64,000 bases of DNA from Mesostigma viride (lineage: Eukaryota > Streptophyta > Mesostigmatophyceae > Mesostigmatales > Mesostigmataceae). Position numbers and translations under genes: made by a program. Position 1 is the first letter of the stretch. Each line of letters opens with the position of its first letter. The stretch is taken from contig RPFO01000448.1 of the NCBI GenBank assembly GCA_009746045.1, forward strand, positions 4,849,521-4,913,520, read 5' to 3'. This document shows, piece by piece, positions 21,624-42,077 of the stretch. The notes under the pieces were generated by a model. That model saw only the letters and a list, made by a program, of their open reading frames with translations, ran no database searches and was not told where the DNA came from.

Positions 21624-21671
21624 GGGTGGTTTTACCGGATTAGGATACATTTTTTTGTTTAGGATACATTT
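21624..21671 (+). repeat. Left terminal inverted repeat and subterminal motif, transposon A
   Basis: The 29-bp TIR ends in TTAGGATACATTT. A second copy of that 13-mer follows directly at 21659-21671. At the right end the same 13-mer occurs once in each orientation, so repeated subterminal copies may be transposase-binding sites. Confidence 0.9.
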
Positions 21672-22013
21672 GATGCACTGTGCAGTTTTCAGATGTGTTT
21701 GAGGGGGTTGATTGCGCCTAACATGCATTTTATTGAAGCAATGAGTTTCCCAAGATATACATGATATAAACTAAGACAATTGACCCATTAAGGCAATGAG
21801 ACAACATCAATAAGACAACTTATGCCAATTGAATAAGACAACTCAACCTTACAGGACGTTGGGCCATCATACGTCCGGAATAATTGTCTCACTTATTACA
21901 TAACCAAACTTTTTGAGGGATCGCCATGGTTGCATGGTTTCAACACATGCGCCCTGCACTCATGTGCATCAAAGGTGTTGCGTCTAGTGCCAACTCAGTG
22001 TCAAAGAACTGAT
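21672..22013. other. Left subterminal region of transposon A
   Basis: AT-rich, with repeated gacaac/aagacaac words (21770-21845). No coding sequence is seen. It probably includes the 3' UTR of the minus-strand gene. Confidence 0.5.
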
Positions 22014-23229
22014 TCAATCATATTTCCCCCGTGGCCATGAAGGCCCACATGAGTTAAACATGGCCGAGAGTGATTGCATCATCCTTCTTGGCGACATCGG
22101 TCTTGACGACGTCGATGGGGAAGACGGCAGCACCTGCATGTGAACAAAAGAATCCATGAATTGTGGCATCCAAAGGCAACAACATATTAGCATCCCATTG
22201 AACACGCAGCCACGCTGACCCGGCCATCCAGCCGCCCACGCAGCCACAAAGCCAGCCAGCCACGCAGTGACGCACCCACCCAGCCACACATCCACGCATC
22301 CACGCACCCGGCACCCCCCCCAGCCAGCCAGCCAGCCAGCCACGCAGCCACGCAGCAGCGCAGCCACGCAGCCACGCAGCCACACAGCCACGCACCCTCC
22401 TTTCCAGCCAAGCAGCCACGCAGTCACACAGTCAACCCCCCCATCCCCCCCCCCCCCCACCCCCCCCACCCACCCACCCACCCCCACCCCACCCACCCAC
22501 CCACCCACCCACCCCACCCCCCACCCCACCCACTCAACACTACACGAATGACTCACAAAGAACTGCTGCACCACCGATGATCCCTGCGGGAACTGCTCTG
22601 CTGCCGACGGTCCCTGCGAAAACTGCTGCAGTGCCGACCATGCCTGTGGAATCTGCCACATTGCCGACGCTGCCTGCGGGAACTGAAGCGCTGCTGGTGA
22701 CGCCAGCTGTAACTGAAGTGCTCCCGACGATGCCTGCGGGAACTGCTGTGTTGCCGGTGACGCCAGCTGTAGATGAAGCACTGCCGACGATGCCTGCGGG
22801 AACTGCTGCTGCTGCTGCTGCGGGAACTGCTGCTGCTGCTGCGGGAACTGCTGCTGCTGCTGCGGGAACTGCTGCTGCTGCTGCGGGAACTGCTGCTGCT
22901 GCTGCGGGAACTGCTGCTGCTGCTGCGGGAACTGCTGCTGCTGCTGCGGGAACTGCTGCTGCTGCTGCGGGAACTGCTGCTGCTGCTGCGGGAACTGCTG
23001 CTGCTGCTGCGGGAACTGCTGCTGCTGCTGCGGGAACTGCTGCTGCTGCTGCGGGAACTGCTGCTGCTGCTGCGGGAACTGCTGCTGCTGCTGCGGGAAC
23101 TGCTGCTGCTGCTGCGGGAACTGCTGCTGCTGCTGCGGGAACTGCTGGTGCTGCTGCTGCTGCTGCGGCGGCGGCTGCGGGAACTGCTGCTGCTGTTGCT
23201 GTAGCTGTTGCTGTAGCTGTTGCTGTTGC

Positions 23230-23325
<96 letters not shown>

Positions 23326-24794
23326 AGTTGCTGCTGCAGTTGCTGCTGCTGCTGCTGCAGTTGCTGCTCCAGCTGGACCACTTGTTTCTGCACCTCTTTG
23401 TACAGCTGCAAACCAAGCTGTTCAACCTTCTTGCTTTGGTTCTCCATAGCTCGTTGCATCTCTCTCATCGTCTGTTCCACGCCCACCAGTACGGGGGTCG
23501 GCGGCGGCAGCGGCTGGGTACGCTCTGGCTGGGTGCGCTCTGGCTGCCGGCGTTTCTCTGCCGGCTGGGAGGACTTGGCTTTGCTGTTCCGCTTGGGTCG
23601 CTGTTGTGCGTTGGTGACGTCCACCAAAGGCGTGGCTGCCTCTGGGGGCTTCACTATGGGCGGGAGGGCACGCACTCGCATCCCCCGGCTAGGCGCCGGA
23701 GGCCACGCCGCTGCAGCAGGACCTGAATACAAGGCAAGGGCGGGGTCCCTAGGAAATCCTGTTGTCAAGATGCATGGGACCTCAGCGAGGAAGTCCCATG
23801 TCATCTGGGACACCAGCTCACCTTGGTGCGACTGGGCCCAGGCGAGAGTGCGCTCAATACGCTCGTTTCGCGCACTCTCCGGAAATGTGTCAACTACCTT
23901 GAATCCGGGGATGTGCCCAGTGGCAGGGTCACGATCGACGACCATGCACACCACATCTGTCATCTTGATGGTAGAGGATCTCCCCCGTGCCGCATTTGTG
24001 TATGCCGATTTTAATGTTTTCTTTGTTGTGTAGGTCGTTTGGGCGACCAGCACCGCTTGCAGCTGTTTGTCGATGGTGAGGCCCCCCACCACCACCCCGA
24101 GGGTATCCCAGCCAGAAATTTCCACGACAGACAGTGCCATCGGTCCACTGCGGCTAAAAGACCTTGCAGTAGGGACCGGCGTGCCATCGTCCCGCTTTTC
24201 AGGAACGCCGGCCTCAGGTAGAGGGGAAGAGAACAGAGCCTCCTTAGTGGCGTCCAGCCCCGAACCCGGGTTTGAATGACCATGCTCGTCGGCAGGACGC
24301 TGAGGAGACATCGGGGAATCTTTCTCGTTTGTCGCATTTGCAGCCCCATCATGATGGAAGTCATCCTCTGCCATTGCAGCTTCATCATCACAACCGACAT
24401 CATCATCGAAATTCAGGTCATCCTCGGTGACGGGCGGGCGAAACGAATTATCCGGGCACTCTGGGCTGATAGTGGAAGGCTCCGTGGGCTTAATGTTGCT
24501 AGTGTGCCCTGGCTGCTCGAGCGTGGCGCACGGCTGGCATCGTGGAGGGCCGCCGCAGTCAGAGCATTGCCATTCCGTGCCGTCACCGTCGTCTGCGTGC
24601 CTGAAAATATGCGTACAGATGCCGTGCAGGACCTTGCCACATCGGCCGGCGCATTGGTGGTTTGCACCGGCCAAAAAATCTACTTTCATGGCACCAGGTT
24701 TCTTTCCTAGCACCCATTTTCTACAATCGTCCCCGGCATAACACAAATCACTCAATTCGTCCATGTCATCGCTTCGGCTATCAGCATCGGGCAT
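22014..24794 (-). CDS. PHD-like zinc finger, Gln-rich accessory protein of transposon A
   Basis: ATG at 24794. The unspliced frame is 926 codons. Residues 18-82 form a PHD-like C4HC3 array (C18, C23, then CAGRCGKVLHGIC and WQCSDC), a fold that often reads chromatin. An acidic Ser/Pro region follows, then a compact domain near 220-330 (VVVGGLTIDKQLQAVLVAQ, TWDFLAEVPCIL), a basic linker and a coiled coil. Then come a long poly-Gln tract, about 17 QQQQFP units and degenerate FPQASSA repeats. The tail after QQFF (22551) is probably intronic: a perfect donor GTGAGT begins there on the minus strand, and an acceptor ttcttttgttcacatgcag ends at about 22134. The Trp/Gly/Cys-rich tail would then be absent and the gene would end in a short second exon. 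It is divergent from the transposase gene. Confidence 0.8.
22135..22550 (-). other. Probable intron in the transposon A accessory gene
   Basis: Starts GTGAGT right after the QQFF codons and ends ttgttcacatgcag on the minus strand. It is filled by low-complexity C-rich DNA (cccaccca and agccacgc repeats on the plus strand), which would explain the non-protein-like tail of the unspliced frame. The phase-0 second exon ends at TGA 22014. Another frame of that exon (AAVFPIDVVKTDVAKKDD) looks more protein-like, so the exact junction is uncertain. Confidence 0.55.
22798..23360. repeat. CTG-rich coding minisatellite (18-bp units and CAG tract)
   Basis: About 17 units of ctgctgctgctgcgggaa (18 bp), encoding QQQQFP on the minus strand. 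They are followed by a long interrupted CTG/TTG tract encoding poly-Gln. Plus-strand Leu/Ala and minus-strand Ser frames are shadows. Confidence 0.95.
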
Positions 24795-24881
24795 AGTTCC
24801 CGTGGCTAGTGCCCATCACCTTCCACCTTGAGCGGGGCGAAGTCACGAATTCAAGCGCGAAGTGCATTTGAATCAAGCGGG

Positions 24882-25978
24882 AACTGGGTGACACTGCTTG
24901 AAGACAGGTGAAGACGCGGTGAAGACGTGAAGACGTGAAGACGTGAAGACGTGAAGACGTGAAGACGTTCAGACACGATACGGCAAGTTCAGGTGAAGTT
25001 CAGGTGTTCAGGTGAAGCCGTGAAGACGTGAAGCCGTGAAGCCGTGAAGACGTGGTGAAGACAGGTGAAGACGCGGTGAAGACGTGAAGACGTGAAGACG
25101 TGAAGACGTTCAGACACGATACGGCAAGTTCAGGTGAAGTTCAGGTGTTCAGGTGAAGCCGTGAAGACGTGAAGCCGTGAAGCCGTGAAGACGTGGTGAA
25201 GACAGGTGAAGACGCGGTGAAGACGTGAAGACGTGAAGACGTGAAGACGTGAAGACGTTCAGACACGATACGGCAAGTTCAGGTGAAGTTCAGGTGTTCA
25301 GGTGAAGCCGTGAAGACGTGAAGCCGTGAAGCCGTGAAGACGTGGTGAAGACAGGTGAAGACGCGGTGAAGACGTGAAGACGTGAAGACGTGAAGACGTT
25401 CAGACACGATACGGCAAGTTCAGGTGAAGTTCAGGTGTTCAGGTGAAGCCGTGAAGACGTGAAGCCGTGAAGCCGTGAAGACGTGGTGAAGACAGGTGAA
25501 GACGCGGTGAAGACGTGAAGACGTGAAGACGTGAAGACGTGAAGACGTTCAGACACGATACGGCAAGTTCAGGTGAAGTTCAGGTGTTCAGGTGAAGCCG
25601 TGAAGACGTGAAGCCGTGAAGCCGTGAAGACGTGGTGAAGACAGGTGAAGACGCGGTGAAGACGTGAAGACGTGAAGACGTGAAGACGTTCAGACACGAT
25701 ACGGCAAGTTCAGGTGAAGTTCAGGTGTTCAGGTGAAGCCGTGAAGACGTGAAGCCGTGAAGCCGTGAAGACGTGGTGAAGACAGGTGAAGACGCGGTGA
25801 AGACGTGAAGACGTGAAGACGTGAAGACGTGAAGACGTTCAGACACGATACGGCAAGTTCAGGTGAAGTTCAGGTGTTCAGGTGAAGTCGTGAAGACGTG
25901 AAGACGTGGTGAAGACAGGTGAAGACGCGGTGAAGACGTGAAGACGGGAAGACGTGAAGACGTGAAGACAAGTTCAAT
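24882..25978. repeat. VNTR between the divergent genes of transposon A
   Basis: Built from gtgaagac octamers. The marker ttcagacacgatacggcaag recurs at 24968, 25109, 25258, 25399, 25548, 25689 and 25838, so spacings alternate 141 and 149 bp. The difference is one 8-bp sub-unit, giving a 290-bp higher-order repeat. It has no coding role and occupies the presumed bidirectional promoter region. Confidence 0.95.
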
Positions 25979-26029
25979 GCAGCACTCAGCCGCAGCAGTC
26001 GCACGCAGGTAGAAACGAGTATTGCTGCT

Positions 26030-26486
26030 TGAATCTTATAATTCCTATCGAATGTAAAACAGGCTTTTCGTAAAGAAATCCGATGTGTGGGCGGGCTTTA
26101 CATAGTTGCGATTTCTGGCCTGCGATTTCTGGCCTGCGCTGGTTGTCTCTTTGATAGTGCTTCTGCCCAAGCACTACCGGCTGTAAAACAGTATACTTCT
26201 TGAAGAAATCAGTTGGGGCTTTGTTGGGCGTCACATTTGACCGGTGGGCGGAGTTTCCTGCTTCTGTGAAGGCGCCATCGAATGTAGATCAGTAGATTTT
26301 CTAAAGAAATCTGAGGTGTGGGCAGGGCCTTTATTGCTTGTGTCCATCCACCACCGGATGTAGAACAGTAGACTTATTGAAGAAATCAGTTTAGGGTTTT
26401 GTTGGGCGCCACATTTGAGCGGTGGGCGGGGTTTCTTGCTTCTGTCCAAGCACCACCGGGTGTAATACAGTAGATTTCCTATTAAC
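26030..26486. repeat. Diverged ~110-120-bp repeats upstream of the transposase gene
   Basis: About four imperfect copies of a unit containing aacagtagacttnttgaagaaatc, ttgttgggcgccacatttga, ggtgggcggggtttc and ttctgtccaagcaccaccgg. The last copy ends at the start codon. They probably hold promoter or transposase-binding sequence. Confidence 0.7.
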
Positions 26487-29400
26487 ATGGATGAAGAATG
26501 GGATGTGCCAGACCTGGTGGATTCGGATGCGAGTTCTGAAGCTAGTTGGGGCGGGGATTCTGACGGCTCTGACGACGACCTGCTTCACACGGAAATGGGG
26601 CCCGGCACGTCTTCCTCTCGAGCGAACCGCAGTGGGAAGAAAGATGGCGCCCGGCTTCTCGCCTCCAAATTGAAGTCCGTTGACAAGGACATCGCCAAGG
26701 CCAGGAAGTGCGGTCCGACTTGTGGGGAGCATTGCCTCGAGAAGGTGGGCACCTTACTTACCGATACCAGGTCGTGGACTGCCTTTCGAGAGTACCTGTA
26801 CAACCAAACGGACCAGCAGCGCATGGCCTCCCTTTGCGACGTGATCCGGTCGGCCGGCGTGGGCAACATCGAGGTAGAATCCCCTGCCGACGGTGGCCGT
26901 TACAAGAAGTACATCATTACCGGCCCTTTACACGTGGACGTGGTGATTGCGGGGTGCATGTACACCGTCACCGGTTGTGCATCTGCCATCCGGAAGATGG
27001 CCGGCGTTACCCGGGCGACTTGGAACAATCTGGTGGCGTCGGTCGTGTCGGCGAAAGAGTATTTCCTGACTGTGCATCCCAACGACCTAGCGACTTTCGG
27101 TGTTGGTCTGGAGCACGCACCACCTGAGCGTGATGCTCGGGGGCGTTCGGAGGTTGGCGAACACGCAGCAATGTGGATGCACGAGTTGGTGCAGCAGATC
27201 GCAGACCATGACCCGACTCATGCTGGCGTTGTCTTCATGGACGTCATGTCCATCAAGGAGATGCACGCCATGTACGTTGAAGACGTGGTGGCAGAAGCGG
27301 GGGAAGGGGCCAAGGTGCTAGGCTACAACGCATTCTACCGCATCTGGCGCACCTACTGCAAAGGCGACTACTTCCCAGGGCAGAGGAGCCCGAAGGTGGT
27401 GGTATGCCCGCACAACAAGAGCACCGGTCACTGCGCGGACTGCGTGGAACTGCGCATGCGGCGCCGCGGTGCTTCAACTGAGGCACAACGGCAGTACGTC
27501 GACAACCAAATCAAGCAACATGTCGCTCTGGCCTGGTTTACCCGCCAGAACTATTGGTTGAGGCGCGAGCTTGCCTGCGCGATGGTGGCCGCTATGTTGA
27601 CGGCCATTTTGTCGATCAACCTCGACAAGCTGGATCACGCCAAGACATACTGGCCGAAGCTGGTGGGGGGGCCCGACTCATGGGGCAGCTATGCAGGTGG
27701 CATGATGCCGTTCTCGCTCTTCTGTGCGGCCGTCCATGGGTACAAGGCGATGTGGTTCATCGTTCTCGCATGGGTCCTCATGACCGACAACCTCTCCGGC
27801 AGTGTCACCGTCACGATGCTGATGCACATCCTGGCGCAGTTGATGAGGGACCAGCCATGGAGGAGGGCGGGGCTGCCGCACATGCCCAGGTGTTTGTGCC
27901 TGCAACTGGACGGTGGGAGTGAAAACCGGAATCACACCGTCTTACTGTTTGCATGGTGGCTCGTACACGTTGGCTTCTTCGACGTCGTCGAAATGCACCG
28001 CATGCTCGTGGGCCACACGCACGCCGACCCAGATCAGAAATTCGGCGTGCTTGTGGCCTACATGAGACACGCTGTGGCGGGGGGGCCTAGCTTCGTGCAC
28101 AAGTACCCAACTTTGGAGAGCTGGGTGGCGGCCATAGAAGAGGCATTCAGTCAGCCTAGTGGTGCAGCTGCGAACTGCAACTCGACCGTCCCCGCTGGCA
28201 CGGAGGTCAAGGTATTGGGGTGCGCTTACGATGTCAGGAACTTTCTCACTCCGTTGCAGCGCGAGTCGTTTGCCGGTTGGTGCAGCACGGTAGATTGGAT
28301 GACCGGTAGGGAGGATCAGGTTATCAAGGTCACCAGGGTGCGTGGTGATGTCGTGCAGCCTGCGTGCAGCGAGGCGCAGCCGGCGCACGGAGGGGCGGCG
28401 CCATCGGTGCGCGGCGGGGCGGCAGCGGCGGCGCAGCCGGCACGCGGCGGGGCGGGGCAGTCAGCGGGCAGCGGGGCGGCGCTGCCGGTGCGCGGCGGGG
28501 CGGGGCAGTCGACGGGCGGCGGGGCAGGGCCGTCGACGGGCGGCGGGCCAGCGGTGCTGCCGGCGCGCGCGGGCGGCGGGGCGGGGCTGTCGACGGGCGG
28601 CGGGGCGGGGCAGTCGACGGGCGGCGGGGCAGGGCCGTCGGCGTGCGGGGGGCCAGCGGTGCTGCCGGCGCGCGTGGGCGGCGGGGCGGGGCAGTCGACG
28701 GGCGGCGGGGCGGGGCAGTCGGCGCGCGGGGGGCCAGCGGCGCTGCCGGCGCGCGCGGGCGGCGGGGCGGGGCTGTCGACGGGCGGCGGGGCGGGGCAGT
28801 CGGCGCGCGGGGGCCAGCGGCGCTGCCGGCGCGCGCGGGCGGCGGGGCGGGGCTGTCGACGGGCGGCGGGGCGGGGCAGTCAGCGGGCAGCGGGGCGGCG
28901 CTGCCGGTGCGCGGCGGGGCGGGGCAGTCGACGGGCGGCGGGGCAGGGCCGTCGACGGGCGGCGGGCCAGCGGTGCTGCCGGCGCGCGCGGGCGGCGGGG
29001 CGGGGCTGTCGACGGGCGGCGGGGCGGGGCAGTCGACGGGCGGCGGGACAGGGCCGTCGGCGTGCGGGGGGCCAGCGGTGCTGCCGGCGCGCGTGGGCGG
29101 CGGGGCGGGGCAGTCGACGGGCGGCGGGGCGGGGCAGTCGGCGCGCGGGGGCCAGCGGCGCTGCCGGTGCGCGCGGGCGGCGGGGCGGGGCTGTCGACGG
29201 GCGGCGGGGCGGGGCAGCCGGCGCGCGGGGGCCAGCGGCGCTGCCGGCGCGCGCGGGCGGCGGGGCGGGGCTGTCGACGGGCGGCGGGGCGGGGCAGTCG
29301 ACGGGCGGCGGGGCAGGGCGTCGGCGTGCGGGGGGCCAGCGGCGCTGCCGGCGCGCGTGGGCGGCGGGCGGGGCTGTCGACGGGCGGCGGGGCGGGGCAG

Positions 29401-31475
29401 TCGGCGCGCGGGGGGCCAGCGGCGCTGCCGGCGCGCGTGGGCGGCGGGGCGGGGCAGTCGACGGGCGGCGGGGCGGGGCTGTCGACGGGCGGCGGGGCGG
29501 GGCAGTCGACGGGCGGCGGGGCAGGGCCGTCGGCGTGCGGGGGGCCAGCGGCGCTGCCGGCGCGCGTGGGCGGCGGGCGGCGCAGCTGGCATGCGGCGGG
29601 GCGGGGCTGTCGACGGGCGGCGGGGCGGGGCAGTCGACGGGCGGCGGGGCAGGGCGGTCGGCGTGCGGGGGGCCAGCGGCGCTGCCGGCGCGCGTGGGCG
29701 GCGGGCCGGCGCAGCTGGCATGCGGCGGGGCGGGGCTGTCGACGGGCGGCGGGGCGGGGCAGTCGACGGGCGGCGGGGCAGGGCGGTCGGCGTGCGGGGG
29801 GCCAGCGGCGCTGCCGGCGCGCGTGGGCGGCGGGGCGGGGCTGTCGACGGGCGGCGGGGCGGGGCAGCCGGCGCGCGGCGGGCCGGCGGCGCAGCCGGCG
29901 GGCGGCGGAGCGGCACAGCCGGTGCCTGAAAAACGCGGTCGCTCAATGAAGGTGCACCACGCGGTCTTCTTCCAGGTACAGGGCAACGCAGAGACCTGGT
30001 TGTCCTACCGGACCACGGAGTCCCAAAAGACGCCGTGGCAGCCCGCGGGGACTCGACAGGAAGGCGCGCCACGGTGCGGGAAGGCGATGACACAGCCTTA
30101 CAAGTTTGATGCGGAGGGGCGGCCGCTGTTTGGCGTCCGACTTGTGGATCCAGACCGCATTCCGATGTTGCAGGACACCCCAGCCTTCGCACCATTGAAC
30201 ATGGAGTTTCTGGGGAAGGAGCTGGAGTCGATCAAAACAAGGGTCCAGAAGTTGCCCCATGGCATCTGGCAGTGGTACTTTCCGCCCGACACCATCAAGC
30301 CAAACGAGGCCTTTTTCGCAAAAGTCCCACATGCCCCTGAGGAGGTGCCTGAGGAGTGGCGCCCTTTGCCGTGGCCATCTCGCGCGGACATCTCCGCCCT
30401 GCGTGAGCACGATGCAGCGCCTGAACCACCACCGACGCAAGAAGAGCACTTCATGGCGTTGGTCGACGCAGAGGCGGTGCGCGTCACCCCGCTGGTAGAC
30501 CGAGTTCTTCATGATGGCCACACACAGCAGGAATGGGCGGCAGAAGACAGGGCCATGACAGCCAAGGTCGCTTACTTGAAGCGCATGCAAGGCGTTGAGA
30601 AAGGCTCCGCTGTTCTATACTGGCACCCTTCAGCTGGTATTCTCTGCAACTCGAAGCTCACGTGGACTCCAGTCCTCTTTGGCATCATCAAGGAGGTGGT
30701 TGCGAAGGAGGATGGCGGCCAACCTTCTATTGAGCTCTTTGTATACCGCGCTAAGCATTTGCGTGACACGTGGCACCCGTGGAACCCAGACATTGCGCAA
30801 TGGCCCCATCCGCCAACCACTGCGGCGCACACGGTGATCATCACCGCGTCAGACCTCGTCTTGACACAAGTGGTGGGCAAGCGAGGTCAGCCGCCCCATG
30901 CAGTCTCCTTGGGTGCGAACAAAAAGCTCACCAAGGAGTGCCTAAAGGCGCTGAAGGAGGTGCCCTGTGACGCGGAACACCCGGTCGTGAAGTGGCAAGA
31001 TGCTGAATGCTCGAAGGGCATCGTCGGCATGGCGAAGGCATGCTGGGAAGGCATAACGCTGCAGGTCAAGAGTGGCAGCCGCAACCTCGTAGGGCAAGTC
31101 GTGTGTCATTGGGCGTCGGAGCGTGTGACATCCGCGGACGGTCGCACCGAAAGCCGGGACGGCAGGTACCATGGTCGTGTCGCTGTTGTCGACACGCAAA
31201 ACGACATGGTAGCCATGTACTGGGGTGCCCGTTGGGAGGAGGACGCGGTTTCTTGCGTGCCTCTCCACGAGCTGGAGGCACAGATCTGCGGGTGCCCCGG
31301 TGTGGTCGTCCCTGCGTTGCAAGCGCCGGATATCACCCTGGCCGAGGCTCGATTGCGCGAGATGGTTCCACCCAGCGACGATGTGGCGGAGAACAACAAC
31401 GCAGGCGCCTCCCGGCGTCGGAAGCGAGCGCTCATCCTTGCCGATGACGATGACGACGACGACGACGACTGCTGA
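26487..31475 (+). CDS. Transposase-like protein A (DUF7869-like core, repeat linker, acidic tail)
   Basis: Single 1662-codon frame. The acidic N-terminus is followed by a Cys cluster (KCGPTCGEHC), then VVFMDVMSIKE (Asp252) and a zinc-like cluster C307-H309-H315-C316-C319. Next come LQLDGGSENRN (Asp475) and GHTHADPDQKFG (509-520, Asp514/516). The order and spacing suggest an RNase H-like DD39D catalytic triad. The LDGGSENRN and GHTHxDxDQ boxes resemble proteins that I recall as DUF7869, which is not verified here. Residues about 620-1146 are a Gly/Ala/Arg-rich tandem-repeat linker. Residues 1150-1640 form a conserved C-terminal region (WTPVLFGII, GRVAVVD, CGCPGVVVPA) shared with transposon B. 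The last nine residues are Asp8-Cys. TIRs and a target duplication support a transposase role; catalysis is inferred. Confidence 0.85.
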   Translation: MDEEWDVPDLVDSDASSEASWGGDSDGSDDDLLHTEMGPGTSSSRANRSGKKDGARLLASKLKSVDKDIAKARKCGPTCGEHCLEKVGTLLTDTRSWTAFREYLYNQTDQQRMASLCDVIRSAGVGNIEVESPADGGRYKKYIITGPLHVDVVIAGCMYTVTGCASAIRKMAGVTRATWNNLVASVVSAKEYFLTVHPNDLATFGVGLEHAPPERDARGRSEVGEHAAMWMHELVQQIADHDPTHAGVVFMDVMSIKEMHAMYVEDVVAEAGEGAKVLGYNAFYRIWRTYCKGDYFPGQRSPKVVVCPHNKSTGHCADCVELRMRRRGASTEAQRQYVDNQIKQHVALAWFTRQNYWLRRELACAMVAAMLTAILSINLDKLDHAKTYWPKLVGGPDSWGSYAGGMMPFSLFCAAVHGYKAMWFIVLAWVLMTDNLSGSVTVTMLMHILAQLMRDQPWRRAGLPHMPRCLCLQLDGGSENRNHTVLLFAWWLVHVGFFDVVEMHRMLVGHTHADPDQKFGVLVAYMRHAVAGGPSFVHKYPTLESWVAAIEEAFSQPSGAAANCNSTVPAGTEVKVLGCAYDVRNFLTPLQRESFAGWCSTVDWMTGREDQVIKVTRVRGDVVQPACSEAQPAHGGAAPSVRGGAAAAAQPARGGAGQSAGSGAALPVRGGAGQSTGGGAGPSTGGGPAVLPARAGGGAGLSTGGGAGQSTGGGAGPSACGGPAVLPARVGGGAGQSTGGGAGQSARGGPAALPARAGGGAGLSTGGGAGQSARGGQRRCRRARAAGRGCRRAAGRGSQRAAGRRCRCAAGRGSRRAAGQGRRRAAGQRCCRRARAAGRGCRRAAGRGSRRAAGQGRRRAGGQRCCRRAWAAGRGSRRAAGRGSRRAGASGAAGARGRRGGAVDGRRGGAAGARGPAALPARAGGGAGLSTGGGAGQSTGGGAGRRRAGGQRRCRRAWAAGGAVDGRRGGAVGARGASGAAGARGRRGGAVDGRRGGAVDGRRGGAVDGRRGRAVGVRGASGAAGARGRRAAQLACGGAGLSTGGGAGQSTGGGAGRSACGGPAALPARVGGGPAQLACGGAGLSTGGGAGQSTGGGAGRSACGGPAALPARVGGGAGLSTGGGAGQPARGGPAAQPAGGGAAQPVPEKRGRSMKVHHAVFFQVQGNAETWLSYRTTESQKTPWQPAGTRQEGAPRCGKAMTQPYKFDAEGRPLFGVRLVDPDRIPMLQDTPAFAPLNMEFLGKELESIKTRVQKLPHGIWQWYFPPDTIKPNEAFFAKVPHAPEEVPEEWRPLPWPSRADISALREHDAAPEPPPTQEEHFMALVDAEAVRVTPLVDRVLHDGHTQQEWAAEDRAMTAKVAYLKRMQGVEKGSAVLYWHPSAGILCNSKLTWTPVLFGIIKEVVAKEDGGQPSIELFVYRAKHLRDTWHPWNPDIAQWPHPPTTAAHTVIITASDLVLTQVVGKRGQPPHAVSLGANKKLTKECLKALKEVPCDAEHPVVKWQDAECSKGIVGMAKACWEGITLQVKSGSRNLVGQVVCHWASERVTSADGRTESRDGRYHGRVAVVDTQNDMVAMYWGARWEEDAVSCVPLHELEAQICGCPGVVVPALQAPDITLAEARLREMVPPSDDVAENNNAGASRRRKRALILADDDDDDDDDC
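28350..29925. repeat. GC-rich tandem repeat inside transposase A
   Basis: About 1.58 kb of nested repeats of ggcggggcggggcagtcgac, ggcgcgcgggggccagcggc and similar, in higher-order blocks. It is free of stops in all three plus frames and in at least two minus frames. Unit-length changes swap the translated frame (GGGAGQS to RRAAGRG and back) without ending the ORF. Confidence 0.95.
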
Positions 31476-32600
31476 AGCGCGAGCAGCGGTTGTTGTCATT
31501 GAGCTGCTCATGTGCTGCTGCTGCTGCTGTGCTGCCATGCTACTGTTGCTGCATTGCTGCCGTGCTGCTGTTGTGCTGTTGTGCTGATGTGTTGCTGCAT
31601 TGCTGCCGTGCCGCTGATGTATTGCTGTCGTGCTGCTGTGTTGATGCACTGCTGCATTGCGGCCGTGCTGCTGAGCTACAGTTGTGCTGCTGCTGTGCTA
31701 CGGTCATGCTGCTGCTGTGTTGCTGGGCTGATGTGTTGTTGCATTGATGTAGTGGCTATTGTTCCGCTACTACAATTTGCTACTGATGCCGCTGCTGGTG
31801 CTTTTTTGCATGGCAGTGCCCGCTATGTTCACACCACTGTTGCCGCGGTTGGTATCGCGTGATTTCCACCGGTTGTGCGTTGACATGTGTTACTCATGCA
31901 TTTCCCGCTATATTTGGTAGCACGCGGTTTCACGTTAGTTAGGTGCAGACAGCTGCATGTAGACAAACATCTTGTTTAAGTCGGTCAATTGACGGTTCTT
32001 GACGCATCATGGTCCAAGTCGACCGACCTGTAGGGACCAGTAGAGCAATTGTCTAGGAGAAAGAGCGTGATCGCTGCAGAAGCCGCGTGGCAGCCGTGGC
32101 TGTACCTGTAGTACGACCTGCATATATATGGATACTGTATTTGGATACTGGGTTGTTTATCAATTCTGGTTTTAATTTATTTAGTGTACCTGGTGTTGGC
32201 ATGCCAACTCAGTGCTAAACTACTTTATGCACAATGATGCAACTTGATGCTATAGTGACGTGCCACGATGTAACTTTATTAACTTCACCATTAGTCATGG
32301 GGTCAATAGGATTGCTCATTATGCCATGTTAACATGAACCATGGGTTACGTAATAGTGAAAACAGTAATCATGATGCTCCACTTGAAGTCTCCAACATGG
32401 TCATGTTTGGAATTTTATTGATCATATTTACAATATATGAAAAGAGACAACAAACGTGGAAGCATGGCACGCCGAGGCCGATAATATATGTGTGAAATAT
32501 GAAAAGAGACAACATCTTTGGCAAGCATGATCATATCATGCTTGCCAAACATATGAATGATATCGACCATGTCCAGAAACCATGTTTGCCAATGGTGCAT
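31476..32600. other. 3' flank and right subterminal region of transposon A
   Basis: It begins with imperfect tgctgctgtgctg repeats (31500-31750), probably 3' UTR, and then becomes AT-rich non-coding sequence. Toward the end gaaaagagacaac occurs twice (32439 and 32500). Confidence 0.6.
32517..32549. repeat. 14-bp-arm hairpin near the right end of transposon A
   Basis: Arms 32517-32530 (tttggcaagcatga) and 32536-32549 are exact reverse complements around TCATA. Possibly a terminator or binding site. Confidence 0.8.
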
Positions 32601-32652
32601 TTAGGATACATTTGAAGCCGTGCAAATGTATCCTAATCCGGTAAAACCACCC
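32601..32652 (-). repeat. Right terminal inverted repeat and subterminal hairpin, transposon A
   Basis: The 29-bp TIR (32624-32652) is the reverse complement of 21624-21652. Its inner 13-mer pairs with an inverted copy at 32601-32613 across a 10-nt loop. Confidence 0.92.
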
Positions 32653-33255
32653 ATTACATAAATGCCAACCATGTACGTAGACAAGCCATGATGACCCCAT
32701 GGGAGCCTGAATCCTCATCATTAATTACATAAATGCCATCCATGTAAGTAGACGGGCCATGATGACACCATGGGAGCCTGAATCCTCCTCATTAATTACA
32801 TAAATGCCAACCATGTACGTAGACAAGCCATGATGACACCATGGGAGCCTGAATCCTCATCATTTACTATTCCTTGACATCCATGTACGTAGGCCAGCCA
32901 TGATGACACCAATGGAGCCTGAATCCTCCTCGTTAATTACATAAATGCCAACCATGTACGTAGACAAGCCATGATGACCCCATGGGAGCCTGAATCCTCA
33001 TCATTTACTATTCCTTGACATCCATGTACGTAGACGGGCCATGATGACACCATGGGAGCCTGAATCCTCATCATTTACTATTCCTTGACATCCATGTACG
33101 TAGGCCAGCCATGATGACACCAATGGAGCCTGAATCCTCTTCATTTTCTTAATGAGTGGATTCAGGTTACATAAATGCCAACCATGTAGGTAGACAAGCC
33201 ATGATGACACCATGGGAGCCTGAATCCTCATCATTAAATACATAAATGCCATCCA
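32653..33255 (+). repeat. Satellite array between transposons A and B
   Basis: About 8-9 monomers in the same orientation and phase as the left block. It starts with the duplicated ATT and ends in ccatcca at transposon B. It includes one hairpin-type monomer near 33127-33166. Confidence 0.95.
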
Positions 33256-33285
33256 GGGCTGATTTTTTTAAGTATATTAGAATTT
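33256..33285 (+). repeat. Left TIR, transposon B
   Basis: Exact 29-bp match (from 33257) to the reverse complement of the right end. The neighbouring satellite monomer is broken at gccatcca. Confidence 0.9.
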
Positions 33286-34277
33286 CTCCCTTTGAATTTT
33301 AATAAACCCTTTTCCCCTTATTTTACCATGGTTTCAAGCCCCCCTGACCGTATTCATCACGCAGCCTAAGGGAGAAGTGATGTTGGCACGCTATCCCATG
33401 GTTTCCCATACCTAGCCACCGTGCCTTCTCCCGTGTGCCCTTGCTATGTAGGTTTGGACAACTCAAACAGGAGTCAACACATGGGCTACATTCCGTCTTG
33501 GCATTAATTTCAAGTTTCCATGTCAGTTTTTATCATGGTGGCCAAGGGGGAAGTTATGTTGGAACAGTATCCCATTGTTTCCCATGCCTAACCGTTATGT
33601 CCTCTGCCATGTGCCCTTGCTATGCATGCGCTTCGACAAACTCACAACAGGGTCAACACAGGAGTTATCGTCCATAAATGATGAACGCCATGCAAAAAAT
33701 GCTTGCATTCCATGCTGTACGCACTAATTGGATGACACTTGTGTATAATGCATGATCGAAAGGCCTTGCTAAATTACAGCCTCTTACTAAAAGCACTTTG
33801 ACATGGTGCACACACATCAATTGCTACGCAACGCATTCAAGCTATGAGTGACTAAACATATTTTTATTATCAGTTTGGCATCATAAAAAGTTACGTATTG
33901 GCAATAAAGCATGTGTCAACGGTGTCATGGTAATAAATCATCAAGAATGCTCAACGGGCAAGACACAATGACATGTACACGCAATCAATCTACTTGCAAG
34001 CAAGAGTCACCAAGCGTTGATGCACAACATGAAGCGGACCAGCAATGTTCAATACTGTTCCCAACTTTTACACCGTGGATCTACATCCATCTAATTAAAT
34101 GAATGTGTTCATGCTGGCAAAAAACATGTACCAGCGAGCAACAGCCAACCAAGTGCTCATGGAACGCGTATCAAGTGGGGATACTATATAGGCCGGTGCG
34201 TTCCAGCATTTCTCAACGCCGCATCTGTATGCTCACATGCTTGAGCACACGCGACGAAAACCGCAGTATGTGACCGC
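33286..34277. other. Left subterminal region of transposon B
   Basis: AT-rich with one diverged direct repeat: two copies of a segment containing atcccatgtttcccatacctagcc and tgcccttgctatg (near 33392 and 33570). There is no supportable gene. A TATA-like ctatatagg lies near 34184. Confidence 0.5.
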
Positions 34278-34359
34278 CTAGTCATTGCGATCAGAGCTGT
34301 CCTCCTCTACTTCGCTCGGTTCCTCGTCATCCTCCTCCCCCTCGTCGTCGTCATCCTCC

Positions 34360-34402
34360 TCCTCCTCCTCCTCCTCCTCCTCCTCCTCCTCCTCCTCCTC
34401 AA
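34360..34402. repeat. (CCT)n tract encoding the acidic tail of protein B
   Basis: CTC/CCT repeats on the plus strand encode a poly-Glu run on the minus strand, parallel to the poly-Asp tail of protein A. Confidence 0.9.
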
Positions 34403-35954
34403 CATGCTTCGACCGTTTCCGTCGCTTGCCCCCAGCGGCTGCCCGGCTCCTTGTAGCTTGGCTCGTTGTAGCCCGTCCCCGCTGCGTGCGCGCCCCAGCG
34501 TCACGGCGAGCGCCGCCGCCGCCACCAGCACCAGCCGCCCGCGTCGTGGCCGTGCTTGGCACCGTGGCGCTGTGTTGCAGCTGCACGCTTGCAGCAACAC
34601 GGATGTCCTCTGGCAGTGGCGCCACCACAATCCCGGGGCACGAGCACACCCACGCTTGCAGTTGGTCATACCCGCACACCGACCAGTACGTGGCATCCGG
34701 CCACACATGGTTGGGGTCATCTTCCCAGCGTATGCACACTCTTTTCTGCGCAGCGTCCACAGCAGCGACCTGGCCGTGCTCACGCTTGTTGCTGAACCTC
34801 GTGCACACGCGCATGCCGACAGGGATTCCCGCGGCAGCCAGGTCACGAAAGGCCGTTGCTGCGGTTGCTGCGGCGGCTGATGGCGTGCAATACCCGTCCC
34901 ACTGCATCTCACTCTTCAGCGGCTCGGAGAGAGCAATGGCGTCCCTGGTAGGTTTTAGGAGCTGGCCGTCTACGCCACACGTCACCGTGTACTCCTTCCT
35001 TCCTTTCTTCCACTTTGAGAGCAGAATGGAGGAAGCCGGCACGGTGAAGGTGTGACGCTGCATCCTTGCAGGCGGCGGGACTATGGCACACCGCGGATGC
35101 CACAGCTGCCATTTTCCCGTGTAGCACGGCGCGCAGTAGCCCTCTAGCTCGTACCGCTGGCCATCCGCAGACGATTGCGCTTCCGGAACTGACGCCACGA
35201 TGGCATAGATGACAGGCGTCCAGCTCGGGTTGGCAGGCACATGGTCCGGCAGCTTGGCCAACACCGCGTCGCCCGGCTTCAGGTCATCACATGCCGTGAG
35301 TGCTGCCACACGCATCTCGATGCGACGCTCATCCGCTGCATGCTGAGCCTCGGTGTATCCTGCATGCCGCACAGGAGGGATCAGGGGACGTAGGGCCTCT
35401 TCGTTCTCTGTCGCCAGCTGCAGCAGCCGTTGCGCTTGCGTCAGCTCCGGCGTTGCACCCACCGTGGGCACACGGTTGCGCCATGCCGCAAACTGTGCGG
35501 GAGTCCCCCACCGCGTCTGCCACTCCTGTGGCGCATCGCGGGGTTCCCTTGGCAGTGCTTTGAGCCAATCAGGCCATGATTTCAGCTTTTCCTGCAGTGT
35601 GCGCGTGCTGAAGAACGCGGAGACCTTGGAGTTGGTTTGCAAGCGTTTGAATTTGGCCACTAGCTCGGGCAGCCCTTTCGAGAACCAGTTTGGATCATAT
35701 GGACACAGTGGTGGTGGCTCCTGCAAAAGATGCGGCGGCGTGTCCGGGCGAAGAGTCCGGACGCCGTAAACAATGCTGCCATCCGGAAGGCGCTGGGCAA
35801 CCATGGGTGCTGCATCATCTTCGCTCCACCCAGATGGCTCCCATCGCGATGGTGTCAGGAACTTGTACCCAAAATACGGCTGGCCGTCTGGACCCCGCTT
35901 AAACAGCGTGTGGTGGGGTTTGCTCGATAAGGGCCCCTTCTCAGGCCGCCGCTC

Positions 35955-36160
35955 CTTGGGGGGCTGGCCGCCGCTGGGGGCTGGACGCCGCTGGGGGCTG
36001 GCCGCCGCTGGGGGCTGGCCGCCGCTGGGGGCTGGCCGCCGCTGGGGGGCTGGCCGCCGCTGGGGGGCTGGCCGCCGCTGGGGGGCTGGCCGCCGCTGGG
36101 GGGCTGGCCGCCGCTGGGGGGCTGGCCGCCGCTGGGGGGCTGGCCGCCGCTGGGGGGCAC
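35955..36160. repeat. 17/18-bp minisatellite in the transposase B linker
   Basis: Units of tggggggctggccgccgc (18 bp, G6) and tgggggctggccgccgc (17 bp, G5). At least seven 18-bp and four 17-bp units are present. All three minus frames stay open through it. Confidence 0.9.
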
Positions 36161-38320
36161 GCGCGGCACCAGTGGCCCGCTGAACCAATCTGCGCTGCCT
36201 GCCCAGTTGCTCAGATCTGGATCAAGGTACACTTCAAGCGTAGAGTGGACGTCGCGGTGCGACGCGACGGTGCACATCATTACCCCCTCTGGAATGTGCT
36301 TCAGCTTGCCCGTGTCGAAAGCCGACTTCTTGAAGGCATCCGCCCACGCCCCCTGCCAATCTTCTAGGGTAACGTAGGTAATGCTCTTCATGCCTGACCG
36401 GCCCACTTGCAGGTAGCCTTGGCCCACCCCGAAGAGTTGGTCCGGATCGCTATGGGAGTGTCCCCTTAGCAGCCGGTGGAAATAGACCTTCTTAAAAATT
36501 CCCTCCTTCACCAGCCACGCCCCAAAACAAAGCACAGTATAATTTCTGTTCTCGGAGCCCCCATCAAGCCAAATGTGCAGGTCATCCGGCATGGGACACC
36601 CGTCCTTGGCCCATGGCTCCGCCTCGCAAAGCCGTACGAGAGCATCCATGAGAAGGCACACCACACGGGAGCCCATTTGGTGCTTGGTTTGTAGCATAGG
36701 GAGCTCCGAGTAGAAAATGGCTTTCCACCCATGTATGACGCACGCGTAGAACTTGAACTGGAACAGCCCCCCCTCGATGGCATCCCATTCCTCGGAAGCA
36801 TGAGCCACATGGGTGACAATGCTCTTCTTGCTGTCCATGGCATCCATAACAATCTGGATTAACTTCCATCGGCGGTTGCAGGCCTCATCTCGGCGGTCGT
36901 AAAAGATATGGCGTTCCAACGTATGCGCAGCTTTGTGTAGCTTGTGCGCACGTTTACACTCGTCGTGCCTCTGCATGTTGTTACCGCAGCCCGTTCGCCA
37001 CTGTCGAATCGCAACGCAATCCGAGCAGAGGCCTGCATTGCGCTTAAACTTGCGCATGACTACCTTGGGCCAGCCCGGACACCACGTCCCATCCTCCACC
37101 TGACTCCACACCTTACGAAACGCGCCATATGACAGCCACTTTCCCCCAAGCTGACCCTGTTGCCTAGCCATCATTTCTTCACAATACTCATGTTGCCAAA
37201 TATCCTTCAAGCAATCCAAATCAATCTGAAGCACGTCTCCCCCAGCGCCGGAAGGGTCGTAATCCGCCATATCTCTCGCATGCTGAAGAATCCACTGAGC
37301 CGCCTCCTCCTTCAAAATGCCCAGTCGCCCATTCCGTGGCATTGCGTCAGAGGTACTCAGGGGAGAATCTTCCGACACCCCCAGCTTGTCGAGTTCGATG
37401 TCATCGTAATGGAGAAGAACATCGTCCATCTGTGCAGCCATCTTTGCGGCCTTCACCGCGGCGTACCAAGTCGGATCGGCAACCGCCAGGACGTGCTTTA
37501 CAACTTTATGGCATGCCTGGATGACCTGCATGCCACCGGACGGCATTTTCACCTTCAACGACATTAAGCCTTTGATGTCATACTTTGTGTAGAAGCGATG
37601 CTGGTCATTCGGCTCCTCCACCACAAGATTGTCAAGGCCATGCTCCTGCATCATCGTCACAAGACGGTGGCTCCGCTCCTTTTGCGTGGGTAGCCCGAGG
37701 TAACTCTGTCGAGCCAGCTCCCAGACTTCCACATCACGCTGGGGCGTGTTCATCTTTTCCATGCACTTCTCAACGCAACAACCCCTTGGAGCATTTTGCA
37801 ACGTCTTCATGTCCTCAGCGATACTAGCACGGTTTAACTTTCGCACTTTAACGCTGTCATTACTACATTTCCCCGAATAAGTTCTAGTCTTACTAGGAGG
37901 GTCGTCATCCCCTGCAGCTGGCACCTCCCCGTGGACTACATCATGTCCGAGTGTGGAAGACGCCATCATCCCCTTAATTTAATTATCGTTATATGGAAAT
38001 AATCTAACACCCATTTCACCGGAATATTTAATTATCGTAGCTACAGGTCTGGTCGCTGGTTACTCCCCGCGAGTAACCAGCGACCATGGTACGATTGTGA
38101 GTGAACGTCGACTTTATTCACATTGTGCGGCTCGTGTGTGTTGCATCGTGACTCAGGTGCCAGGCTGTCATTTCCCTACCACGCCAACTGCGAACGTGCG
38201 CACCTGTCCAGCCTACTTCACATAAACAGCTGTAGGAGGTCATGCAGCAAGTAGAACAGCTGCTGCGTAGTTGGACATTCGGGCATTCTCGATTGTTGTC
38301 GGGGTTTCAATTGCCGAACA

Positions 38321-38920
38321 ACTGCGCAAGGATGCAGGTGCTGTCCTACTACCCGGCGTTCTTGCGGCAGCAGCTGCTGCTCAAGTTGGACAGTCGGACA
38401 GTCACGTTGCCGAACTGCGCAAGGATGCAGGTGCTGTCCTACTACCAGGCGTTCTTGCGGCAGCAGCTGCTGCTCAAGTTGGACAGTCGGACAGTCACGT
38501 TGCCGAACTGCGCAAGGATGCAGGTGCTGTCCTACTACCAGGCGTTCTTGCGGCAGCAGCTGCTGCTCAAGTTGGACAGTCGGACAGTCAGGTTGCCGAA
38601 CTGCGCAAGGATGCAGGTGCTGTCCTACTACCAGGCGTTCTTGCGGCAGCAGCTGCTGCTCAAGTTGGACAGTCGGACAGTTAGGTTGCCGAACTGCGCA
38701 AGGATGCAGGTGCTGTCCTACTACCAGGCGTTCTTGCGGCAGCAGCTGCTGCTCAAGTTGGACAGTCGGACAGTCAGGTTGCCGAACTGCGCAAGGATGC
38801 AGGTGCTGTCCTACTACCAGGCGTTCTTGCGGCAGCAGCTGCTGCTCAAGTTGGACAGTCGGACAGTTAGGTTGCCGAACTGCGCAAGGATGCAGGTGCT
38901 GTCCTACTACCAGGCGGCAT
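38321..38920. repeat. 93-bp VNTR between the divergent genes of transposon B
   Basis: aactgcgcaaggatgcaggt recurs at 38321, 38414, 38507, 38600, 38693, 38786 and 38879, exactly 93 bp apart. The unit is a multiple of three, so long frames exist on both strands (about 240 codons each), which I treat as repeat artefacts. It sits between start codons 37969 and 39139, like the VNTR of transposon A. Confidence 0.95.
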
Positions 38921-39138
38921 ATTGTGTGTTGAAATTTCAAATGCAGGTTTCAAATTGAAAGGGTTTGACGACGTCGGGACAGGCTCCGCAGGCAAGCGAT
39001 GGCGGTGAAGGCACCCTGTTTCTAGGGTAAACGTCGAAAGCAGTCTAAGTTTGATTTTGCCAGCTAATAGCCGGCAATGTGAAGTATATTGTTACTAGCA
39101 ATCTTGGAGTGCGGAGCTGTGGTGGGTTTGTTTGACGG

Positions 39139-41213
39139 ATGGCTGGTTTGGAGGAAGCCGGCATAGTGGCCGAGCAAGACGGTCACGCTGGACAGAAAGC
39201 TGCACCCGATAGGGCGAATGTTTCCAAGCCGACCGTCCTCAATGATGACACGTCCAATGCTGAGAATGGAGTAGAAAAGGAAGGGGTTCGCATGGCAGAC
39301 ATTGACGCCATGAAAAAGCTGCTGGAATCAACTGATTGCAGTGGCGACGTCGCCATGCGGGACTTCTCAGCTCGATATGTGCGCGTAGATGAGGTCGGTT
39401 CTGAGAAGGCTTCAGAGGGCTCCGCCTCTGGCATAGCTACCGCAGGGTCTGGCTCTAATCCTGCGTACAACGCCTCGGCAGGAGATGTGCAGGTGGAGCA
39501 CGATCCTTCCCATCCAATCCTGGAGGGCGACAAGGAGGGCAGTCTGCCGATGGGCCTTCCAGTCGTCGATGCGGCGGCGGCCTCCACGGTCGACGACTTC
39601 GCTCCTGGTGGGAGGCTTTATCAGGTTGGTTTAAACGCAAATATCACTCCTTGTCTTCATCTGCATTGGCTTGTTATTACTGGGCTTTAGTTGCATGCTT
39701 GTTTATCCACATGTTCACTTGTGCTGTGCTTGTTTTCTTGTCGTGGACTAGTTAGGCTGAAATAGTTGTACATGCATGTGCAGCCACCTTGTCATGGGCA
39801 TTGTTTGGCAGTATTCTTGCCTTGTGAATGAATGCATGAACCGTAAATTGTGAATGACGGAAGCAAGTCGCGTTCCCATGTTTGATGCTATATGGATGTA
39901 AACTTCGTGCAGGGAATGGCCAAGTGGACAGACAAGCAGGGCGAACATTGTGTGCGCGTCGGGGACATCGTGACGGTGCCAAAGCCTCTGCCTGACCCAG
40001 TATGCGTCGTTGTGATGGTGCTTGAAGGCCACGGTTTCATGCTGGCCGCCATCAATAATGGAGCTGCAAGCAGGGTGGCTGGCATGTGTGCCGCCAACAA
40101 GCTCAAACTTCAGCACCGCTACGTCTGGATGCGATGTCACCAAGGAGACACAGTTCCGTGTGTGCCGTACGTTCGGAAATACGAAAAAGTAGTCGACCAT
40201 GTGTACGGCAGTCTGGCAGTGTCTTCCATCTCCAATGCCGCTCGGAATTGGCAAATTTTACTGCTGCTGACGGTGCAAAGAATGCTGTGAGCATAGTAGT
40301 TGCGCGTCTGGGGCAACCCCTGGGCATCAACAAGGTTCATGAAGATGACGCGGTCACGAAAGTTGATGCAGGTGTGCTGACCTCAGCGAAGAAGGCTGCG
40401 CCGCCATCGAAGCAAAAGTCATCCTCCGCTGACCCAAAGCCGGGCACGGCATCCAAGGGGAAGGAGAACGTAGCACCAGCTAAGCGCCAGAAGACCGGGA
40501 TGGCTGCAGGGCAGGCAGCGCCCCTGGCTCCGGCAAAGAAGGCTGCATCTGCTCCAAAGGAACCTGCCTGTGGGGCCTTGGCCCGCTCCGGAAAGGGAGA
40601 TGGTGTTTCGATGGCTGACCTCAAGGCCTTGTTGGCGGAGCAGGTCGTCAAGAGCCAGGAGGCCATGGAGGCCATGCAACGTGCACACAAAGCAGAAGTT
40701 CAGGCATTGGAGGCCAAGTGCATTGCTGCTGCGCAAGATGCGCTTCTGCGCAACCAGGAGCTGGCATCCAGCCGCCAGCCGCTTCCGCCGCCGCCGCCAC
40801 CGCTGCGGCTGCCGCCGCCTCCGTCGCCTATGCCATTGCTGCCGCTGCCGCAGCAGCAAGCGCTGGCACCAGTGTGCCAGCCGCTGGTGCCACCGCCGCC
40901 CGAGGTACCACATTTGCAGGTGCTTTGTCAGCAGGTGCTGCAGCTGCAGGAGAAAGTGCAGCAGCTGAGTGACTCGCAACCAACAAAACAGCCATGCAAG
41001 AGCACTGGGCAAGGCTCTTCATGTCATGCCGACCATGCTGGTCGTTTCGCAGAATTGCTAGACATGTTTGAAGAGAGAGTGCTCAGCATGCCCAATAGCA
41101 GAGTGAGAGCACCCCTCATGCTGTCCCATGGTTGCCCTGTGCACTCGCACCGCAGCTGCACGTGTGAACGCGATGCATGCCATGGTGGATGGGCATATCC
41201 GCAATGGCATTAG
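39139..41213 (+). CDS. Three-exon accessory gene of transposon B
   Basis: The model is exon 1 39139-39624, exon 2 39913-40200 and exon 3 40281-41213. Both introns are GT-AG and phase 0 (donors cag then gttggt, and cat then gtgtac; acceptors cgtgcag and gcaaag). Splicing joins three frames that no single ORF covers. The product is about 568 residues. Exon 1 is acidic and polar (MADIDAMKKLLESTDCSGDV). Exon 2 encodes a compact domain (GEHCVRVGDIVTVPKPLPD, CVVVMVLEGHGFML) that could be a BAH- or Tudor-like fold, unproven. Exon 3 has a Lys/Ala/Pro-rich linker, a coiled coil (AEQVVKSQEAMEAMQRAHKA), a poly-Pro stretch, Q-rich helices and a Cys/His-rich end (CPVHSHRSCTCERDAC). The divergent position matches the PHD-like gene of transposon A. 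Confidence 0.7.
39625..39912 (+). other. Predicted intron 1 of transposon B accessory gene
   Basis: 288 bp, GTTGGT...GTGCAG, AT-richer than the flanking exons, phase 0 on both sides. Confidence 0.65.
40201..40280 (+). other. Predicted intron 2 of transposon B accessory gene
   Basis: 80 bp, GTGTAC...CAAAG, phase 0, resolving the frame change between exons 2 and 3. A one-base frameshift near 40245 is the alternative. Confidence 0.5.
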
Positions 41214-41242
41214 TTAATTAATTAATTAATTAATTAATTAGA
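41211..41242. repeat. (TTAA)n microsatellite
   Basis: ttaattaattaatta run just after the stop codon of the accessory gene. Confidence 0.9.
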
Positions 41243-41277
41243 CGCGCGCTCGGGCCGTTGGGGAGTCACGGCGCCCC

Positions 41278-41453
41278 GATGGATGGATGGATGGATGGAT
41301 GGATGGATGGATGGATGGATGGATGGATGGATGGATGGATGGATGGATGGATGGATGGATGGATGGATGGATGGATGGATGGATGGATGGATGGATGGAT
41401 GGATGGATGGATGGATGGATGGATGGATGGATGGATGGATGGATGGATGGATG
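41278..41453. repeat. (GATG)n microsatellite, about 44 units
   Basis: Pure GGAT/ATGG tetranucleotide array of about 176 bp, the reverse complement family of the array at 1285. Confidence 0.97.
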
Positions 41454-42047
41454 CAAACAGTCCTACCGGTCTAGTTGTTTATTGTGACAGGAGCATGACA
41501 GTTGCATTGTGAAATGTATGTGGGATGGCACCATATATGGTTGTCTTCTTGACGTGTATCATGGACATTATATAATAAACACTGGGCATATGTATTACGC
41601 TACCTAATAAACTTGTCCAACGGTCCCATGCTAGCTGCCAAGCAGCATGACCTCCGCATGTCGATGGTGTCCATGGTATTTTCAGATAGTTGTTCGATGT
41701 GCCCTCTGGCTTGTAAGGAAATCTAGATACTTATCACAGCACTTGTCTAGCACATGACCCGGTCTTGCACGTTGGCTTAGCACACCTCCCCCGGCCATGC
41801 ATTCAGTGAACTTGAATTCCTTGAAAGAGGCTGTGCGCCATGATGGACGGCTGTCACCGTCACTGCTCGACCTGTTACGCACACACGCGATGCATGCATG
41901 GGGCAACGGGCGTTAGCCGAACTGGGGGGATAAGGCTTGAGAGGGTAAGAGAGGAGTGATCGTGTAGTTCTAGCGACTATATACACAGTATCTGAGCATC
42001 CAAACAAGGTCTAGCTGCATCCCTGGTCAAAATTTAATAAACCAAAA
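41454..42047. other. Right subterminal region of transposon B
   Basis: No gene supported. Short frames on the minus strand lack recognisable features. A palindromic gcatgcatgc-like word occurs near 41890. Confidence 0.5.
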
Positions 42048-42077
42048 AAATTCTAATATACTTAAAAAAATCAGCCA
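42048..42077 (-). repeat. Right TIR, transposon B
   Basis: 29-bp inverted match to the left end, followed by CCA and intact satellite sequence. Confidence 0.9.

Follow-up and report, generated by a model that had tools for sequence, protein, structure and literature searches.

Two DUF7869 transposons in Mesostigma viride

A 64,000-nt window of the Mesostigma viride contig RPFO01000448.1 contains two related elements, element 1 (family C) and element 2 (family A), each bounded by terminal inverted repeats (TIRs). We are highly confident that both belong, as DNA transposons of autonomous type, to a superfamily whose defining feature is a DUF7869 transposase with a core of three aspartates (DDD), and that each also has an accessory gene. 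DUF7869 corresponds to Pfam PF25273 (curated cut-off 26 bits), whose annotated function is unknown. All coordinates given here are those of the window, and copy counts refer to the 440-Mb assembly; the features of both elements are collected in Table 1.

The original prediction, made from the sequence of the window, had proposed 29-bp TIRs and 3-bp target-site duplications (TSDs) for both elements, and these were borne out. For element 1 the inverted repeat spans 21623-21652 and 32624-32653 (30 nt, 100% identity), or 29 nt without the TSD base. For element 2, 29 of 30 terminal bases match; the inner 29 nt are identical, with the outermost base being G on the left and A on the right. No other pair reached 100% in the list of the 25 longest inverted repeats between positions 20000 and 44000. 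Both elements are embedded in a satellite with a 71-bp unit, and for this reason the empty site could be examined inside the window. When the flanks of element 1 were joined minus one TSD, the resulting 32-mer was found exactly 31 times in the window; for element 2 the corresponding 32-mer was found 11 times. Keeping the duplication gave no occurrence in either case, so that the clean empty-site reconstruction claimed previously held.

The predicted gene arrangement, in which a large transposase-like gene and a divergent second gene are separated by a tandem repeat, was likewise seen in both elements, and in a third family (B), too, the genes are separated by a stretch that bears repeats. The transposase open frame differs in length among element copies. 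In element 1, further copies of a TIR-internal motif, TTAGGATACATTTG, are present close to the ends at 21659-21672 and 32601-32614 (element positions 36 and 10978); these are possible extra binding sites for the transposase.

Table 1. Features of elements 1 and 2 in the Mesostigma viride window
Feature	Position	Strand	Remarks
Element 1, family C	21624..32652		11,029 bp, TIR-bounded
TSD ATT, left copy	21621..21623		
Left TIR, 29 bp, GGGTGGTTTTACC...	21624..21652	+	inverted-repeat listing and end reading
Second gene, 926 aa	22014..24794	-	N-terminal part Cys/His-rich, weakly PHD-like; C-terminal part Q-rich
Tandem repeat between divergent genes	24899..25969		141-bp unit, 7.4 copies
Transposase open reading frame (ORF) with DUF7869, 1662 aa	26487..31475	+	PF25273 E 6.3e-16, residues 437-590
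Putative catalytic triad of the RNase H core: D380, D475, D516	27624..28034	+	conservation; fold modelled on element 2
GC-rich tandem repeats within transposase ORF	28366..29922	+	
Right TIR	32624..32652	-	identical to left at all 29 bases
TSD ATT, right copy	32653..32655		
Element 2, family A	33256..42077		8,822 bp, TIR-bounded
TSD CCA, left copy	33253..33255		
Left TIR, 29 bp	33257..33285	+	outermost G 33256 unmatched
Transposase C-terminal part, other frame	34278..36188	-	frames overlap inside 18-bp tandem repeat
Transposase ORF with DUF7869, 704 aa; D376, D469, D510	35855..37969	-	PF25273 E 1.3e-10; RNase H-like model
Tandem repeat between divergent genes	38320..38916		93-bp unit, 6.4 copies
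Second gene, in pieces of different frames	39139..41213	+	exon limits by manual reading
Right TIR, 29 bp	42048..42076	-	outermost A 42077 unmatched
TSD CCA, right copy	42078..42080		

Copies and target-site duplications across the assembly

The assembly was searched for further TIR-bounded copies with 3-bp duplications, as had been proposed. The element 1 TIR pattern, allowing up to one mismatch, was found 254 times in forward and 267 times in reverse orientation, with none for the reversed control in either orientation; the pattern for families A and B gave 37 and 48 occurrences, again with none for the control. For TSD analysis, the first 20 plus/minus element 1 TIR pairs lying 8.9-11.3 kb apart were taken in listing order, skipping four pairs with a wider spacing (13-16 kb). 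An exact 3-bp TSD, never longer, flanked 17 of these, and 3 were without one. When left and right ends were swapped between copies, a 3-bp match arose in just 11 of 380 pairings.

At the protein level, at least 65 matches were found in the assembly (fragments and the window itself counted), and in a DUF7869 search all of the 150 scored out of 275 candidates matched, representing several families. Ten further gene-bearing copies were fetched. Six of these have both TIRs less than 20 kb apart, with one mismatch in two of the TIRs, and all six are flanked by 3-bp TSDs (TAT, AGA, TTG, GGT, CAT and CAT). The other four have one TIR within that distance: in C1713 the matching opposite end is 24.9 kb away from the first, the stretch around C1106 includes 4339 N, and for C667 (1258325) and C1912 a single end was seen. 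Genes lying outside any TIR pair, which would speak against a mobile element, were thus not clearly encountered. Together with the two window elements, exact 3-bp TSDs flank 25 of 28 two-ended copies. These comprise 19 distinct words among the 25, and the target is therefore not fixed.

Movement appears to be recent. Between copies C1579 and C1868, an alignment of 11.28 kb contains a single mismatch and nine gap openings, and this near-identity on different contigs and at different targets (GGT and CAT) is a sign of recent movement. The transposase coding DNA of element 1 (1844 bp) is also 99.5% identical to that of each of three other TIR-bounded copies. The same TIR and TSD outcome would be expected from replicative or copy-out transposition, since the geometry is alike under both modes; the high copy number and the insertion sequence (IS)-like bacterial relatives described below would also suit that mode. 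Against it, indirectly, none of the element proteins scanned matched a resolvase model, and we regard copy-out as improbable, with cut-and-paste the mode that the elements would more plausibly use.

Pairs of A/B-type TIRs recur at exactly 6,323 bp (six pairs) and 7,110 bp (six pairs). As none among the 150 listed DUF7869 matches falls inside them, they probably represent two non-autonomous derivatives. A further DUF7869 family was noted at locus L041 (G000:C1:13654500-13657500), in which the frame is 753 aa long and over 10 domain matches share the same score; the family retains DGGSENRN and the DDD positions.

The DUF7869 core and its proposed catalytic residues

The boxes DGGSENRN and GH(T/S)HxDPDQ, with a 39-residue spacing between aspartates, are present in both window proteins as described originally, and the suggested Pfam search placed both in PF25273 with scores above the cut-off (59 bits for element 1 and 41.6 bits for element 2; E-values in Table 1). 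The domain was found in all three TIR families (A, B and C), and all 52 aligned DUF7869 members match PF25273. Comparison of four Mesostigma rows with 59 other DUF7869 rows using hhalign gave a probability of 98.3% (E 1.8e-14). The Mesostigma rows differ from the others in their long C-terminal extensions and in having DGGSENRN where the general DUF7869 consensus reads DNCxGQNKN. The element 2 protein alone had no matches in a protein search and none among PDB sequences, and a search with the four Mesostigma rows matched just one Mesostigma record and the product of the window itself. EukProt Mesvir1 records were matched at 97% identity over 31-39% of the query.

Across 65 rows, the equivalents of D376, D469 and D510 of element 2 are aspartate in 65, 64 and 61, respectively. 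The first aspartate corresponds to D380 of element 1, with D383 as an alternative, and to D376 of element 2, with D379 as an alternative; the third is D516 in element 1. The adjacent residue, D514 in element 1 and D508 in element 2, is aspartate in the four Mesostigma rows, yet in the wider alignment, with 52 rows, it is so in just 2. A triad of D252, D475 and D514/516 had been proposed; D475 and D516 proved to be conserved, but D252 was ruled out as the first catalytic residue because alignment columns 250 and 252 vary. A CxxC...H motif precedes the first aspartate, and DUF7869 rows share the CxxC-H and DDD positions.

Structure prediction, suggested as a check on clustering of the aspartates, was carried out on the element 2 core, and two models showed the order of strands and helices of an RNase H fold. 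The triad in the modelled fold contains the equivalent of D380, not D252. Every one of the 50 structural matches listed for the first model was to a retroviral integrase, Mos1 or Metnase; a viral fold library gave no match at E 0.001. As modelled, the DUF7869 core adopts an RNase H fold that carries the three aspartates.

The second gene

The second gene is related among the three Mesostigma families. With E-values computed for a set of six sequences, the family B gene aligned with exon 2 of element 2 (39% over 110 aa, E 1.8e-19), and family B exon 1 aligned with both the Cys/His part of element 1 (48 residues, E 4.5e-6) and exon 1 of element 2 (E 1.4e-5). By manual reading, exon 1 of element 2 runs from 39139 to ~39625 and exon 2 starts at ~39922, with another frame change at ~40250. 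Second-gene pieces from element 1, from element 2 and from family B matched no Pfam model above cut-off, the element 1 gene having a weak PHD match below cut-off (0.064); nor did a Myb/SANT model match any of these pieces at E up to 1.

Bacterial relatives

Bacterial and archaeal species genomes were scanned with a profile of ten DUF7869 proteins, yielding 46 pattern stretches, 7 of which encode relatives. One of the seven carriers is an isolate, Desulfocicer vacuolatum DSM 3385; the other six are metagenome-assembled genomes, of which some may be misbinned. Four of the bacterial elements have two ends (2116, 2067, 2108 and 2715 bp), with DUF7869 as the one large gene in each. Their inverted ends are ~35-59 bp long with a few mismatches and start GGGG, GG[CG]GG, GGGG and GGGGG. 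As candidate TSDs in the flanks, 4-bp matches were seen at L083 (AAAT) and L084 (AATT), with just 2 and 3 of 4 bases matching at L082 and L088, respectively. Similarity between L085 and L086 ends within ~1 base of the right TIR end. L087 was left out of the count of DUF7869 elements, because a second transposase, of ISL3 type, lies between its outer repeats. The 59-bp ends of L088 (205-2919) hold a repeated AAAC(C)GTACCTATC motif. New here are single-gene bacterial TIR elements of 2.1-2.7 kb carrying DUF7869, one of them from Desulfocicer vacuolatum.

These elements bear on another possibility, in which DUF7869 would be a passenger or an accessory nuclease and transposition would be carried out by the second-gene product or by the long C-terminal region. 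The second gene is, like DUF7869, common to the three families, and the C-terminal region of the element transposases has no known domain in Pfam. However, DUF7869 is the sole large gene of the four bacterial elements, and it is in DUF7869, not in the second-gene pieces with no Pfam match above cut-off, that the DDD/RNase H signature sits. We consider a passenger role very unlikely.

Bacterial copies seem to be rare, because plasmids and phages searched with the Desulfocicer protein gave no match and only 1 of 395 genomes in a search of its phylum was positive, that of Desulfocicer itself. Viral contigs gave 27 and 24 pattern stretches with no relatives. In a midpoint-rooted tree, in which long-branch joins are unsure, the seven bacterial rows fall in three places among other, mostly metagenomic, proteins. 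The four Mesostigma rows are long-branched and are split from all others by a branch whose support is 100/99.

Comparison with known superfamilies

The DUF7869 elements likely constitute an undescribed superfamily, as judged by Pfam and NCBIfam models and published superfamily descriptions. Fifteen Pfam families were matched by any of the 52 rows at E 0.05 or better. The one transposase model among them was DDE_Tnp_ISAZ013, matched weakly by a single row (0.0071), and no PHIS/IS5-type DDE transposase model was included. NCBIfam had no model above cut-off for six proteins. In the literature searched, the term DUF7869 was absent, and none of the titles and abstract starts listed pointed to such a superfamily. 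The suggestion of novelty made originally is hence plausible. The competing view is that a genuine family falls within a superfamily that already has a name (Zator/ISAzo13, Academ or a divergent Harbinger) and that only its link to DUF7869 is new; this has a smaller though appreciable chance of being correct.

According to excerpts of two papers, Zator/ISAzo13 has a 3-bp TSD, that of AcademX being 3-4 bp (PMC10045372, PMC12730594). In hhalign, a 63-row DUF7869 profile was in register with six ISAzo13 proteins in the region between the second and third acids (28%, E 6e-4), whereas 20 column-shuffled versions reached at most 0.45%. However, this sub-threshold value fell to 5.8% with the 59 rows excluding Mesostigma and to 0.1% with the four Mesostigma rows, and an integrase-like control of five sequences came near it with the 63-row profile (16%), giving 0.7 and 0.1% with the 59- and 4-row profiles. 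Single ISAzo13 proteins gave 0.1-4.2%, versus 0.04-1.9% for single controls, and an IS5 InsH control gave 0.34, 0.44 and 1.34%. The flanks of four ISAzo13 copies showed no clear TSD. For Academ, the partners named in an excerpt of PMC10045372 are a helicase (AcademH) or a nuclease (AcademX); no helicase or nuclease model was matched above cut-off in the element proteins and pieces scanned, nor a Myb/SANT model.

The ends of PIF/Harbinger elements are GG-rich, like those of the DUF7869 elements. PHIS elements have TSDs of 0-4 bp (3 bp in canonical Harbinger) and encode two proteins, as stated in excerpts of PMC12730594 and PMC2836001, and both the 3-bp TSD and the two element proteins are shared with the elements described here. 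These differ in the varied words of their TSDs and in second-gene pieces that match no model for Myb/SANT, a domain of the canonical PHIS second protein. CMCT elements (Plavaka and Lanisha among them) have C(2)C and H(3-4)H motifs between the second D and the last acid, and their ends are mostly 5'-CA..TG-3' (excerpt of PMC12730594). In the corresponding region of DUF7869, CxxC was found in 0 of 63 rows and Hx3-4H in 1 of 63, and the ends read GGG..CCC in element 1 and GGG..CCA in element 2, with no CA..TG end. The C/DxxH motif between the second D and last E, given for hAT, P, MuDR, Kolobok and Dada in excerpts of PMC9587614 and PMC10045372, was found as [CD]xxH in 3 of 63 DUF7869 rows, and the four Mesostigma stretches had no such motif. 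Finally, the cores of retroviral integrase, IS21 IstA and mariner are 7-14% identical to the DUF7869 core in structural rows; DUF7869 is set apart from them by an aspartate as the third acid, a spacing of 41 between the second and third acids and a CxxC-H part before the first.

Proposed mechanism and significance

On this basis, the DDD core on its RNase H fold, with the metal-binding-like CxxC...H motif ahead of it, would bind the ~29-bp TIRs (5'-GGG...) and free the element ends. These would be joined to the target at nicks spaced by 3 bp, and gap repair would then produce the 3-bp duplications. The divergently transcribed second gene would supply a Cys/His-rich, Q-rich accessory protein, which probably aids end recognition or chromatin targeting. 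The TIRs, TSDs, empty sites, recent copies, common gene and conserved aspartates can be read directly from the DNA; catalysis, cut-and-paste movement and what the second gene does are inferred.

More broadly, we favour, with moderate confidence, the reading that DUF7869 is the transposase of an unnamed DDE/D superfamily found across bacteria, as single-gene insertion sequences, and eukaryotes; that its Mesostigma form is a two-gene element of 8-11 kb with a 3-bp TSD that has spread very recently; and that other DUF7869 proteins are transposases or derived genes. If so, the 'uncharacterised proteins' with DUF7869 in bryozoans, molluscs, annelids and metagenomes would be unrecognised transposases or genes derived from them. 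DUF7869 would gain a function, ends and a target-site rule, and its eukaryotic copies would be tied to bacterial insertion sequences, allowing genome annotators to classify these proteins and locate their elements. In this early-diverging streptophyte alga, the near-identical recent copies would be candidates for an active transposon system.

Surroundings of the elements

The satellite (GCCATCCATGTACGTAGAC..., unit ~71 bp) extends over ~16 kb at 42074-58003, with additional flanking arrays, and its orientation flips after 58113. On the plus strand, a 1348-aa ORF at 12147-16190 has reverse transcriptase, RNase H and C-5 cytosine DNA methylase domains (the last at E 4.1e-11), and is predicted to be a retroelement ORF carrying a methyltransferase.

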